A stretch of 64,000 nucleotides of DNA from NCBI RefSeq assembly GCF_024158125.1, contig NZ_JAMZFT010000001.1, positions 868,001-932,000 on the forward strand, read 5' to 3'. The DNA comes from Futiania mangrovi (lineage in GTDB: Bacteria; Pseudomonadota; Alphaproteobacteria; Futianiales; Futianiaceae). The stretch's first letter is position 1. Each line of letters starts with the position of its first letter. Below the pieces are notes generated by a model. It was not told the DNA's origin and did not search any database. It saw only the letters and a program-made list of their open reading frames with translations. The position numbers were made by a program, and so were the translations under genes. Shown one piece after another: positions 20,544-24,631 of this stretch.

Positions 20544-22091
20544 ATGACCGACACCGTTCTTATCCTCGATTTCGGCAGCCAGGTGACGCAGCTCATCGCC
20601 CGGCGCGTCCGCGAAGCCGGCGTCTACAGCGAGGTCGTGCCCTTCGACAAGGGAGCCGACGCCCTGAAGCGCCTGAAGCCCAAGGCCGTGATCCTGTCGG
20701 GCGGGCCTGCCTCCGTTACCGTCGACACGACGCCCCGCGCCCCGCGCGAGGTGTTCGAGGCGGGCATCCCCGTTCTCGGCATCTGTTACGGCGAGCAGAC
20801 GATGGTCGCCCAGCTCGGCGGCGTCGTGGAAGGCGGCCACCATCGGGAGTTCGGCCGCGCCGACATCGAGGTTGTGGATCATTGCCCGCTGTTCGACGGC
20901 GTGCTCCTGCCCGGCGACAGCGAACCGGTGTGGATGAGCCACGGCGACCGCGTCGTCTCGCTGCCGGAGGGGTTCAAGGCCGTCGCCACCTCGCGCGGGG
21001 CGCCCTTCGCCGCCATCGCGGACGAGGCGCGGCACTTCTACGGCGTGCAGTTTCACCCGGAGGTGACGCACACCCCGCGCGGCAAGGACATTCTCTGGAA
21101 CTTCGTGCACCGCATCGCGGGCTGCTCCGGCGACTGGACCATGTCCGCCTTCCGCGAGGCGGCCATCGCTCGCGTGCAGGAGCAGGTGGGCGAGGGGCGC
21201 GTCATCTGCGGCCTTTCGGGCGGCGTCGATTCCTCCGTCGTCGCGGTCCTGCTGCACGAGGCGATCGGCGACCAGCTGACCTGCGTTTTCGTCGATACGG
21301 GCCTCATGCGCGCGGGCGAGGCGGACGAGGTCGTGAGCCTGTTCCGCGACCATTACAACATCCCGCTCGTTCACGTGGACGCGGGCCCGCTGTTCCTCGG
21401 CAAGCTCGACGGCGTGTCGGACCCGGAGACCAAACGCAAGATCATCGGTGCGACCTTCATCGACGTGTTCGAGGCGGAGGCGAAGAAGATCGGCGGCGCG
21501 GACTTCCTGGCGCAAGGTACCCTCTACCCGGACGTGATCGAGAGCGTGTCGTTCTCCGGCGGCCCCTCCGTCACGATCAAGTCGCACCACAATGTGGGCG
21601 GCCTGCCGGAGCGGATGAACATGAAGCTCGTGGAGCCGCTGCGGGAGCTTTTCAAGGACGAGGTTCGCGCGCTCGGCCGCGCGCTGGGCCTGCCCGACGC
21701 CTTCGTCGGTCGTCATCCCTTCCCGGGACCCGGTCTCGCGATCCGCGTGCCGGGCGAGATCACGCCGGAAAAGGTAGACATCCTGCGCAAGGCCGACCGC
21801 ATCTATCTGGAGGAAATCCGCGCCGCGGGCCTCTATGACGAGATCTGGCAGGCCTTCGCCGTGCTGCTGCCCGTGCGCACCGTGGGCGTGATGGGCGACG
21901 AGCGGACCTACGACTATGTCTGCGCGCTTCGCGCCGTCACCTCGACCGACGGCATGACGGCGGACTATTTCCCCTTCAGCCACGATTTCCTTGGCCGTAC
22001 CGCGACCCGGATCATCAACGAGGTGAAGGGCATCAACCGCGTCGTCTACGACGTGACCTCCAAGCCTCCCGGCACGATCGAGTGGGAATAG
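20544..22091 (+). CDS. guaA: GMP synthase (glutamine-hydrolysing)
   Basis: Converts XMP to GMP using glutamine. 515 residues: class I glutaminase (Cys in LGICYGEQ, His and Glu in FHPEVTHT), ATP pyrophosphatase domain with the PP-loop GLSGGVDSS (about residues 224-232), and the C-terminal dimerisation domain ending in KPPGTIEWE, the near-invariant end of the family. ATG 20544 fits [13 protein letters not shown]; upstream open frame is a shadow of the previous gene. The last three codons plus stop are part of a 15-bp tandem array that runs on past the gene (see 22080). Confidence 0.97.
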
Positions 22092-22163
22092 GGCGAGTGG
22101 GAATAGGGCGAGTGGGAATAGGGCGAGTGGGAATAGGGCGAGTGGGAATAGGGCGAGTGGGAA
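22080..22163 (+). repeat. 15-bp tandem repeat of the guaA stop region (5.6 copies)
   Basis: The unit GAGTGGGAATAGGGC is repeated five times without a mismatch (22080, 22095, 22110, 22125, 22140) and followed by a 9-base partial copy (22155-22163). Each unit reads Glu-Trp-Glu-stop-Gly in the guaA frame, so the real C-terminus and its TAG are reproduced in every copy. Confidence 0.98.
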
Positions 22164-22339: not shown

Positions 22340-23233
22340 ATGCCCACGTCTTCCCAGATTCTGCCGCGGATCGCGGCTGCGGCCGCCTTCGCCGCGCTTG
22401 CCGGCGCCGCCACGGGCGCCTCCGCCACGATTTACAGCTTCGAGGATTCGTCCGGCCGCTGGACGGGGGGCGGCATCCTGACCGAATCCTTCTCCGCCAG
22501 CTATGACACGGACCGGCAACGTCTCGACTTCAGTGCGACGGTGAACGGGTCCGCCTCGCACGCCACAGCGGACGGCTTCTGGCTCGTGCTCAGCGACGGT
22601 CCGAACCCGAAGACCCACGTGAACGAATACGCCATCCTCTATGGCGACGCGGTCAACAACCGGCTGACGGCCTATGTCTACGACGGCGTCAACAGCGCCG
22701 ACAGCTACCGTGACGTGCGCCGCTACATCACCTCATACAGCGGAGTTCTGGACTACACCGACCTCGGCGACGGCCGGTCGAGTTTCTCGGTCTCGGGCCT
22801 CGACGTCTCGACGATCAACAATTACACGCCCTGGTTTGGCGGCACGAACGACTGGGACGGCGTCGCCTTCGGGGAGCAGATCGGCGTCTGGTTCCACCCC
22901 GCGATGATGGAGAGCCTGACCTACGCCTGCACCCTGCTCGTGAAGTTCAGCCACGAGGTGCAGGGCTGGTACGATTTCGCCGGTCAGCCGACGGTCAGCA
23001 GCAGCACGTCCACGGGTGGCGGCTCGACCGGTGCCGGATCCACGGGGGGCAGTTCGATGGGTGGGAACTCCACGGGGGGCGGCTCGACGGGGGGCTCTTC
23101 GGGTACCGGGACGACGGGGGGCAGCAGCGGCGCGACGCCGGTGCCCGCGCCGGCGACAGTGAGCCTGCTGCTTGTCGGCATGTTGGGACTTGCCGCCTTC
23201 TCGGTCCGCGGCCGCAGGGCTGATACCGCCTGA
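22340..23233 (+). CDS. Secreted protein with PEP-CTERM-like VPAPA tail (paralogue 1)
   Basis: 297 residues. Signal peptide ending near GASA, an unrecognised domain of about 190 residues, a Gly/Ser/Thr linker (about 225-265) and a C-terminal sorting-type tail: VPAPA, a hydrophobic helix, then RGRR. Tails of this build (PEP-CTERM family) are cut by exosortases in known systems, and no exosortase is in the window. The domain shares FWLVLSDGPNP, NEYAILYGD and IGVWFHPA with the next gene, so the two are paralogues. ATG 22340 has GGGAG 7 bases upstream and is better than the in-frame TTG at 22319. Function unknown; surface or matrix protein inferred. Confidence 0.8.
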   Translation: MPTSSQILPRIAAAAAFAALAGAATGASATIYSFEDSSGRWTGGGILTESFSASYDTDRQRLDFSATVNGSASHATADGFWLVLSDGPNPKTHVNEYAILYGDAVNNRLTAYVYDGVNSADSYRDVRRYITSYSGVLDYTDLGDGRSSFSVSGLDVSTINNYTPWFGGTNDWDGVAFGEQIGVWFHPAMMESLTYACTLLVKFSHEVQGWYDFAGQPTVSSSTSTGGGSTGAGSTGGSSMGGNSTGGGSTGGSSGTGTTGGSSGATPVPAPATVSLLLVGMLGLAAFSVRGRRADTA

Positions 23234-23260
23234 CCCCGCCTGCCGGGTCCGGAAGTCGTG

Positions 23261-23294
23261 AAAGGGGCGTCTTTCGGGCGCCCCTTTTCCTTTC
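23261..23294 (+). terminator. Intrinsic terminator after VPAPA paralogue 1
   Basis: AAAGGGGCG (23261-23269) pairs with CGCCCCTTT (23279-23287) around a 9-base loop, and a T-rich run follows. It separates the two paralogues into distinct transcripts. Confidence 0.85.
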
Positions 23295-23537
23295 TGCTGG
23301 CACGGGGGAGAGGTCATTTCGGGATTCAACTGTAAGGAGAGCCGCGCTCGGTGTTAATCCCATCTTACATTCAGGCCGCATAATGGGAGCGAAAATGGCA
23401 CAACATCCGCAAGCTTTCCGGTGGTTCTGCCATCCGCACAAAACTGGCATCCATCTTGCTCAATCTGGTTGGGACTTCGACACGGCACTCAGGGCTGAGT
23501 TTCGTTCGTAACAGGGTACAAACTGGAGTTAAGTCAC
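23295..23537 (+). other. Long intergenic regulatory region between the paralogues
   Basis: The full gap 23234-23537 holds the terminator at 23261, then an AT-richer stretch unlike the surrounding coding DNA. It contains an inverted repeat TCCCAT / ATGGGA (23358-23363 and 23383-23388, 19 bases apart), a degenerate sigma-54-like box (TGGCAC-N5-CCGCA, 23396-23411) and a strong sigma-54 match at 23445-23460. No convincing reading frame is present. Confidence 0.6.
23445..23460 (+). promoter_or_regulatory. Sigma-54 (RpoN) promoter of VPAPA paralogue 2
   Basis: TGGCAT-N5-TTGCT matches the consensus TGGCAC-N5-TTGC(A/T) at 10 of 11 defined bases, with the essential GG and GC correctly spaced. Transcription would start near 23470, giving a leader of about 68 bases with GGAG at 23525-23528 before the ATG at 23538. 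Confidence 0.75.
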
Positions 23538-24569
23538 ATGCGTACAATCGATTGGACCAAGGGTGCCATTGCCGCGGCTGCGTTCGCGGGCGCCACCCTC
23601 GTTGCGGGCGCGGCCTCGGCCACCGTCTACACCTATGACGATCCGACCGGCCGCTATTCCGGCGGCCACATCCTGACCGAGAGCTTCCGCACGGTCTATG
23701 ACGACCGGAACGAACTGCTCTCGTTCAAGACGACGGTGAAGGCGACGAACCCGCACGTCACGCCGAACGGCTTCTGGCTGGTTCTCAGCGACGGCCCGAA
23801 CCCGCGCAGCGCCACGAATGAATATGCGATCCTCTACGGCGATACGGTCAACAACCGCATCACGGCCTACGTCTACAACGGCGACAGCTGGAGCGACAGC
23901 TACCGCAACCGTCACAACTACATCGAGACGTTCAACGGTGCGCTGCAGACCACGAACCTCGGCGGCGGCCGCGTGACCTTCGAAGTGTCGAACCTCGACG
24001 TCTCCGGCGTGAATGCCTTCGTTCCGACGAACGGCAATCCGAACGCTTGGGAAGGTGCGCAGTTCGACGGCCAGATCGGCGTCTGGTTCCATCCGGCGCT
24101 CGTTTCCAGCATCCAGTACTCGGGCGGCGTGCTGACGAACTACGTCCCGGGCGCGGCCGGCTACTACGACTTCGCCAACCGCGGCACCTTCTCGTCGCCG
24201 AGCCCGTCGACCTCGGGCGGTTCCACGGGCGGTTCCACGGGCGGCTCCACGGGCGGTTCGACGGGCGGCTCGACCGGCGGCTCGACGGGTGGTTCGACGG
24301 GCGGTTCCACGGGCGGTTCCACGGGCGGCTCCACGGGCGGCTCCACGGGCGGTTCGACGGGCGGCTCGACCGGCGGCTCGACCGGCGGCTCGACCGGCGG
24401 CTCGACGGGTGGTTCGACGGGCGGCTCCACGGGCGGCTCGACTGGCGGCTCGACGGGTGGTTCCACGGGCGGTTCTTCGGGTGGCATCCAGGTGCCGGCT
24501 CCGGCTCCGCTCAGCCTGATCGCCCTCGGCCTGGTGGCTCTGGGTGCGCGGATGCGCCGCAAGGCCTGA
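23538..24569 (+). CDS. Secreted protein with GGST repeat linker and VPAPA tail (paralogue 2)
   Basis: 343 residues. Signal peptide (cleavage near GAASA), about 190 residues of unknown domain homologous to paralogue 1 (shared LTESF, GFWLVLSDGPNP, NEYAILYGD, DGQIGVWFHPAL), then 21 exact Gly-Gly-Ser-Thr units plus one GGSS (about residues 227-314), and a tail of VPAPAP, a hydrophobic helix and RMRRKA. This is the layout of exosortase substrates: a Ser/Thr-rich, possibly glycosylated, stalk before the sorting tail. No cysteine in the mature part. Own sigma-54 promoter and strong terminator make it a single-gene unit. Function not recognised. Confidence 0.85.
   Translation: MRTIDWTKGAIAAAAFAGATLVAGAASATVYTYDDPTGRYSGGHILTESFRTVYDDRNELLSFKTTVKATNPHVTPNGFWLVLSDGPNPRSATNEYAILYGDTVNNRITAYVYNGDSWSDSYRNRHNYIETFNGALQTTNLGGGRVTFEVSNLDVSGVNAFVPTNGNPNAWEGAQFDGQIGVWFHPALVSSIQYSGGVLTNYVPGAAGYYDFANRGTFSSPSPSTSGGSTGGSTGGSTGGSTGGSTGGSTGGSTGGSTGGSTGGSTGGSTGGSTGGSTGGSTGGSTGGSTGGSTGGSTGGSTGGSTGGSTGGSSGGIQVPAPAPLSLIALGLVALGARMRRKA
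24216..24479 (+). repeat. 12-bp repeat tract coding (GGST)21-GGSS
   Basis: 22 consecutive 12-bp units in frame. Codon variants differ between units. Naming the DNA variants a to g, the order is aabcdef, aabbcdddef, bd'ef'g, showing duplication of an 84-bp block followed by expansion of single units. Confidence 0.97.
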
Positions 24570-24596
24570 TCCCGGCCAGCTTGAGGATAGAGAATG

Positions 24597-24631
24597 CGGG
24601 TGCTGCCTCCGGGCAGCACCCGTTTTCTTTT
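24597..24631 (+). terminator. Intrinsic terminator after VPAPA paralogue 2
   Basis: CGGGTGCTGCC (24597-24607) pairs perfectly with GGCAGCACCCG (24612-24622) around a 4-base loop, followed by TTTTCTTTT. It is the strongest terminator in the window. Confidence 0.95.

Follow-up and report, generated by a model that had tools for sequence, protein, structure and literature searches.

Two adjacent genes encode similar proteins with sorting-type tails

Two similar genes lie side by side in Futiania mangrovi, and the locus raises the question of what their products do and how they would reach their place of action. We addressed this question by computational analysis of the window (the whole stretch of DNA analysed, 64,000 nucleotides), of the genome it comes from, and of other genomes.

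We found that both tandem open reading frames proposed in the initial annotation are present at window positions 22340-24569 (Table 1). Both have a coding-like GC3 of 0.86-0.87. They can be aligned end to end, and the mature domains of ~190 residues are 51% identical. The proposed layout of signal peptide, domain, Gly/Ser/Thr linker and VPAPA-helix-Arg tail is present in each, as are all three shared sequence blocks (GFWLVLSDGPNP, NEYAILYGD and IGVWFHPA). By eye, both N-termini consist of a hydrophobic stretch and then ASA followed by T. The pair had also been described as the one place in the 64 kb where the genes are not housekeeping genes. We examined this for the adjoining genes, which are guaB and guaA upstream and genes for a BamB-like protein and Der downstream.

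Table 1. Positions of features in and around the gene pair (window coordinates).
Feature	Position	Strand	Remarks
Gene 1	22340..23233	+	297 aa; predicted exported PEP-CTERM-like protein (signal peptide, probable DOMON-like domain, irregular linker, VPAPA tail)
Signal peptide, gene 1	22340..22426	+	29 aa; predicted cleavage after ASA; from reading of the sequence
Shared domain, copy 1	22427..22996	+	190 aa
Irregular Gly/Ser/Thr linker, gene 1	22997..23140	+	
PEP-CTERM-like tail VPAPATVSLLLVGMLGLAAFSVRGRRADTA, gene 1	23141..23230	+	PF07589 17.5 bits, below cut-off; hydrophobicity
Terminator-like hairpin 3' of gene 1	23260..23288	+	consensus match; shuffled sequences yield ~2 here too
CTTACA	23364..23369	+	weak, short match to the TTTACA 3' end of PrsR-type motif 1; 75 nt upstream of the sigma-54 site
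Sigma-54 -24/-12 promoter TGGCATCCATCTTGCT	23445..23460	+	perfect site; 77 nt before the gene 2 ATG
Gene 2	23538..24569	+	343 aa; predicted exported PEP-CTERM protein
Signal peptide, gene 2	23538..23621	+	28 aa; predicted cleavage after ASA; from reading of the sequence
Shared domain, copy 2	23622..24196	+	191 aa; predicted all-beta sandwich, probably DOMON/CBM9-like
GGST linker, gene 2	24216..24467	+	21 x GGST from a 12-bp tandem array
PEP-CTERM tail VPAPAPLSLIALGLVALGARMRRKA, gene 2	24492..24566	+	PF07589 21.9 bits vs cut-off of 20.7
Terminator-like hairpin 3' of gene 2	24596..24623	+	consensus match only

The linkers differ as originally described, that of gene 1 being irregular and that of gene 2 a pure repeat of exactly 21 GGST units. 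The latter is encoded by a 12-bp tandem array of 21.6 imperfect copies (88% matches), in which the GGST units differ synonymously from one another. A second repeat, a perfect 15-bp tandem array of 5.7 copies (CGAGTGGGAATAGGG, window 22079-22163), begins in the final codons of guaA and copies the guaA stop region across the intergenic space before gene 1.

Both tails contain VPAPA, a hydrophobic stretch (Kyte-Doolittle mean >2 over 15 residues) and Arg residues. When the whole proteins were searched, both scored just below the PF07589 cut-off (gene 1 as in Table 1; gene 2, 16.9 bits). The gene 2 tail exceeded the cut-off in a search of genome reading frames. The gene 1 tail is below it, yet has the same form as the gene 2 tail when the two are aligned.

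The genome encodes an XrtA system and its probable cargo

The absence of an exosortase gene had been named as the finding that would refute a reading of these proteins as exosortase substrates. We found two exosortases in the genome (3.39 Mb, 5 contigs, 99.85% complete), both over the Pfam cut-off (PF09721, 227.6 and 152.5 bits), and the reading was not refuted. NCBIfam identifies the exosortase at C1:1198214 as XrtA (321 bits vs a cut-off of 208). Its locus also encodes, all above their cut-offs, an XrtA-system ATPase (347 bits), a TIGR03087 glycosyltransferase (478 bits), a TIGR03016 outer-membrane protein (133 bits), PrsK (595 bits) and PrsR (662 bits). A PrsT-like TPR protein in the locus scored 243 bits, below its cut-off of 312. 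The second exosortase (C4:111819) exceeds the general exosortase cut-offs but falls short of that for XrtA (183 vs 208 bits). The start of its gene (L006 11154-12989, minus strand, contig C4) is uncertain, and the open frame is far longer than the match.

Twelve PEP-CTERM matches in the genome are over the cut-off, and there are ~15 PEP-CTERM proteins in all. Together with the XrtA/PrsK/PrsR locus and the second exosortase, these proteins support the assignment of the pair to the exosortase substrates. One further protein is an animal-type heme peroxidase (PF03098, 473 bits; L035 1185-2873, C3:67.7-69.4 kb). Its tail, SAPAPLSLVLLGLAGLAWRARKARAAQ, is an SAPAP variant of PEP-CTERM below the Pfam cut-off, and its gene is preceded by a perfect sigma-54 promoter. 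We recognised it as cargo only because of that promoter.

A sigma-54 promoter precedes gene 2

We searched the 3.39-Mb genome with a strict sigma-54 pattern (TGGCAY-N5-TTGCW) and found 8 sites, compared to 1 for the reversed control. Six of the 8 precede PEP-CTERM genes: L010, L011, L014, L018, gene 2 and the heme peroxidase gene. The probability that at least 5 of the 8 perfect sites would lie at PEP-CTERM genes by chance is ~5e-15, a figure that counts only the 5 genes listed beforehand and leaves out the heme peroxidase. When one mismatch was allowed, 12 of the 15 PEP-CTERM genes had a site within 320 bp. As a control, such a site was found in 0.25% of 320-bp stretches picked at random from the window. 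The remaining two perfect sites (L026, C2:491551, and L027, C3:24510) precede genes for which the stretch read showed no obvious PEP-CTERM tail. The L026 site is in front of a membrane protein that by eye resembles the fatty-acid hydroxylase superfamily.

In the published system, the sigma-54 motif averages 71 nt before the start (77 nt for gene 2), an activator motif ending in TTTACA lies ~63 nt upstream of it, and PrsR is the expected activator (PMC1569441). We looked for this motif upstream of the PEP-CTERM genes as TTTACA-like hexamers, and in most genes the matches were too short to convince. Based on its promoter, we suggest that sigma-54 and PrsK/PrsR probably activate gene 2. No sigma-54 site was found within 320 bp of gene 1. 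Since gene 1 is without this promoter, the two genes are probably not co-regulated; the pair would probably be one regulated copy and one differently expressed copy. Gene 1 may have lost its sigma-54 promoter or may never have had one.

The domain is rare and occurs in two export contexts

A profile made from the two window sequences identified one clear relative (genome G297) among 385 genomes of the class. A weak match in G132 was not confirmed with a fuller profile. An iterated search added G626 (two copies), G767 (one copy) and G769 (two adjacent copies). This brought to four the number of other alphaproteobacterial genomes in which the domain was found, of which three have exosortase matches and one has none. 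The family is rare, with 2 of the 385 sampled genomes of the class and 3 of 249 genomes in the family of G626, and therefore is no essential part of the exosortase system. No relative of the domain was found in pattern-based scans of genome contigs (one- and two-copy queries; these contigs may not include the genome of the window), in viral contigs, in plasmids (three different queries) or in 58 relatives (searched with a single sequence). A small tree groups the two window copies as sisters (support 0.98) and does the same for the G769 pair (1.00), and therefore pairs arose at least twice.

In G626, G767 and G769 the domain follows a signal peptide and precedes a PEP-CTERM tail, which has VPEP in four copies and VPAPA in the G767 copy. 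Perfect sigma-54 sites precede both G626 genes, at 54 and 36 nt from the start. Of the two G769 genes, one has a site with one mismatch and the other a site with two; no sigma-54 site was found upstream of the G767 homologue. G626 encodes XrtA and a second exosortase. For the G769 exosortase (L065, C1:436.5-437.3 kb), the match is split into two stretches that overlap, as a frameshift or an assembly error would cause, and we conclude that the gene is broken or misassembled. G767 has XrtA as its sole exosortase and a VPAPA-tailed homologue, which makes XrtA a sufficient candidate for such tails. We had considered assigning the VPAPA tails to the second exosortase and rejected this as unneeded.

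In G297, a search for an exosortase gave no match. The domain copy of this genome is inside an RTX protein (L034) of at least 1445 aa that runs off the contig and has 10 RTX repeats plus Ig-like, cadherin-like and DUF4114 regions. The copy is 32-34% identical to the window copies and keeps W143, W155 and H157. Unlike the window pair, it is part of a multi-domain protein in a genome with no exosortase match.

The domain probably has a DOMON/CBM9-like fold

The initial annotation called the shared domain unrecognised, and it is indeed absent from the Pfam, NCBIfam and PHROGs profile libraries. Eight family members gave no match of weight to Pfam or NCBIfam, DOMON and CBM9 models included, and three tested members matched no PHROG. 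Matches to Pfam Leu_leader and Ni_insertion and to NCBIfam 'cistern' and 'THxN' were far below cut-off, came from the tail or linker, and were rejected. A first search of PDB sequences yielded marginal, unconvincing matches only, and the domain profile yielded none. Of the profile and structure searches that had been proposed for the domain, the former gave no match and the latter pointed to a probable fold.

AlphaFold, run on the 8-sequence alignment, predicted an all-beta domain of about a dozen strands (mean pLDDT 92.1, pTM 0.90). An earlier prediction, based on two sequences only, had low confidence (pLDDT 52.6) and was discarded. With the domain model, Foldseek found no match below E 0.001. 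The adhesin folds GspB and Fap1 were near the top of its output, at an rmsd of 10-14 Å, and were rejected as matches.

In a second look with VIA-align, 999 chains were compared with the model. The best five rows all belong to the DOMON/CBM9 superfamily, with 130-154 of 191 residues aligned, an rmsd of 3.4-4.0 Å and Z of 7.2-8.5, where values below 8 may reflect merely a common beta-sandwich arrangement. They are ethylbenzene dehydrogenase chain C (2ivf_C; Z 8.5, 152 residues), the only row above 8, a Thermotoga CBM9 with cellobiose (Z 7.4), a pyranose dehydrogenase cytochrome (6jt6; Z 7.3), a second CBM9 chain (Z 7.3) and the DBH DOMON domain (Z 7.2). The rows that follow are antibody chains (Z ≤6.5, ~100 residues).

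DOMON/CBM9-like domains are 10-11 stranded Ig-like beta-sandwiches, and some DOMON domains, such as that of DBH, are without known heme or sugar residues. The DBH structure paper gives the cellobiose dehydrogenase cytochrome, ethylbenzene dehydrogenase and CBM9 as structural neighbours of DOMON, whose ligands are heme or sugar (PMC4846438). Like these proteins (2ivf_C, Thermotoga CBM9 1i82, 6jt6 and DBH DOMON 4zel), the window domain is a predicted all-beta sandwich, and it aligns with them structurally over its full length. Its sequence identity to them is 8-16%, and it gave no sequence-profile match. The domain is probably DOMON/CBM9-like in fold, a Z near 7-8 being no proof.

Invariant residues suggest a ligand outside the cell

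Among the residues invariant in all 8 copies of the domain, the RTX-borne one included, are N60, P61, D74, Y83, Y85, W143, W155 and H157 (domain numbering). On the predicted strands, Y83 and Y85 are spaced as i and i+2, and so are W155 and H157. The 8 copies have no invariant Met, Lys or Cys. The set is kept between the PEP-CTERM and RTX versions at 26-34% overall identity. That these residues are common to versions alike only in export from the cytoplasm favors a ligand-binding role outside the cell.

We consider a sugar of the cell's own exopolysaccharide (EPS) the first choice of ligand and heme or a metal the second. We prefer the sugar on two grounds: the link of the cargo system to EPS, and the ability of a PEP-CTERM protein of Aquincola tertiaricarbonis to keep EPS bound. 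The initial annotation had linked the layout of the pair to floc or biofilm formation. The floc part agrees with published work on that RpoN-dependent protein, PepA, which keeps EPS bound and restores flocs; biofilm is not that phenotype (PMC9850573). Like the gene for PepA, gene 2 is a PEP-CTERM gene behind an RpoN-type promoter in a genome with an EPS locus.

Our results are, we think, reasonably well explained if the two proteins are surface-sorted, ligand-binding (probably sugar-binding) DOMON/CBM9-like proteins of the EPS matrix and cargo of the XrtA exosortase system. The signal peptide would export each protein, and the VPAPA-helix-Arg tail would keep it in the inner membrane until cleavage by an exosortase. 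By analogy with the family, the exosortase, most simply XrtA, would remove the tail and hand the protein on towards the cell surface or matrix. The delivered product would be a compact beta-sandwich of DOMON/CBM9-like fold, carried by a flexible stalk of Gly, Ser and Thr. This sandwich would bind a ligand, probably one of the sugars in the EPS that the cell itself makes, and the protein may thus help to hold the polysaccharide to cells. More tentatively, and with considerable doubt, the domain could define a family of DOMON-fold lectins not described before, which would be exosortase cargo, bind the EPS made by the same XrtA locus and have two routes to the surface, an exosortase tail or an RTX protein. 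If that were true, exosortase biology would gain a cargo with a definable ligand.

The same observations could be read in other ways. PEP-CTERM proteins are often without recognisable functional domains (PMC1569441), and the fold matches are at a level that the beta-sandwich arrangement alone could explain. Both points are consistent with a domain that binds no small ligand and instead serves a surface layer or matrix as a building block, structural or for protein-protein contacts. However, aromatic and polar residues abound in the invariant set, several of them spaced i, i+2 on predicted strands, and the set persists in both the PEP-CTERM and RTX contexts despite low overall identity; we regard a building block as unlikely. 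The domain might instead bind heme or a metal, with His157, together with Tyr or Asp partners, as ligand, and serve in surface redox chemistry or metal uptake, perhaps together with the co-regulated heme peroxidase. Heme-carrying DOMON chains are among the best structural matches (2ivf_C, Z 8.5, and 6jt6, Z 7.3), His157 is invariant in 8 of 8 copies, and a heme-peroxidase PEP-CTERM protein is encoded behind the same type of promoter. Yet this His is the sole invariant residue typical of axial heme ligands, and the CBM9 chains are equal within the tie range (Z 7.4 and 7.3). We judge heme or metal binding to be quite improbable.

The tails themselves might be ordinary C-terminal membrane anchors that leave the proteins in the inner membrane facing the periplasm, and the sub-threshold PF07589 score of the gene 1 tail is in keeping with this. 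However, the same genome has a full XrtA/Prs locus, ~15 cargo proteins and a shared sigma-54 promoter, and canonical VPEP tails are present on homologues from other genomes with exosortases. We consider simple anchoring very improbable and retain sorting of sugar-binding matrix proteins by XrtA as the preferred explanation.

Comparison to known exosortase cargo

Neither the sorting system nor its promoter logic is new. The PEP-CTERM/EpsH (exosortase A, XrtA) system, with PrsK/PrsR/PrsT and the sigma-54 motif, was described by Haft et al. in 2006 (PMC1569441). The window pair resembles it in the signal peptide, the motif-helix-Arg tail, the single-gene units and the XrtA gene with an EPS locus. 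The pair differs in having VPAPA in place of the near-invariant PEP, in a domain absent from the libraries, and in gene 1 having no such promoter. The novelty lies in the domain family, which none of the searched libraries lists, in the fold that it probably adopts and in its two contexts of export; the domain would be a new entry for domain databases. The roles of exosortase cargo are largely obscure because most cargo proteins are without recognisable domains. A compact, probably ligand-binding domain, a clear promoter and a small cargo set offer a practical route to what is displayed and bound.

Several other PEP-CTERM genes of the genome share features with the pair. L011 and L018 (C1:324.8-326.4 kb) are another tandem pair of similar PEP-CTERM genes, with a perfect sigma-54 promoter in front of each. 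L010 and L019, on different contigs (C2 and C4), encode PEP-CTERM proteins that closely resemble each other and share a von Willebrand A-like DxSxS start. A PEP-CTERM protein encoded at C2:195-197 kb (L014/L024) has a long Gly/Ser/Thr linker of its own, made of GGSSTSGGWSTSGG plus TSSGA repeats.
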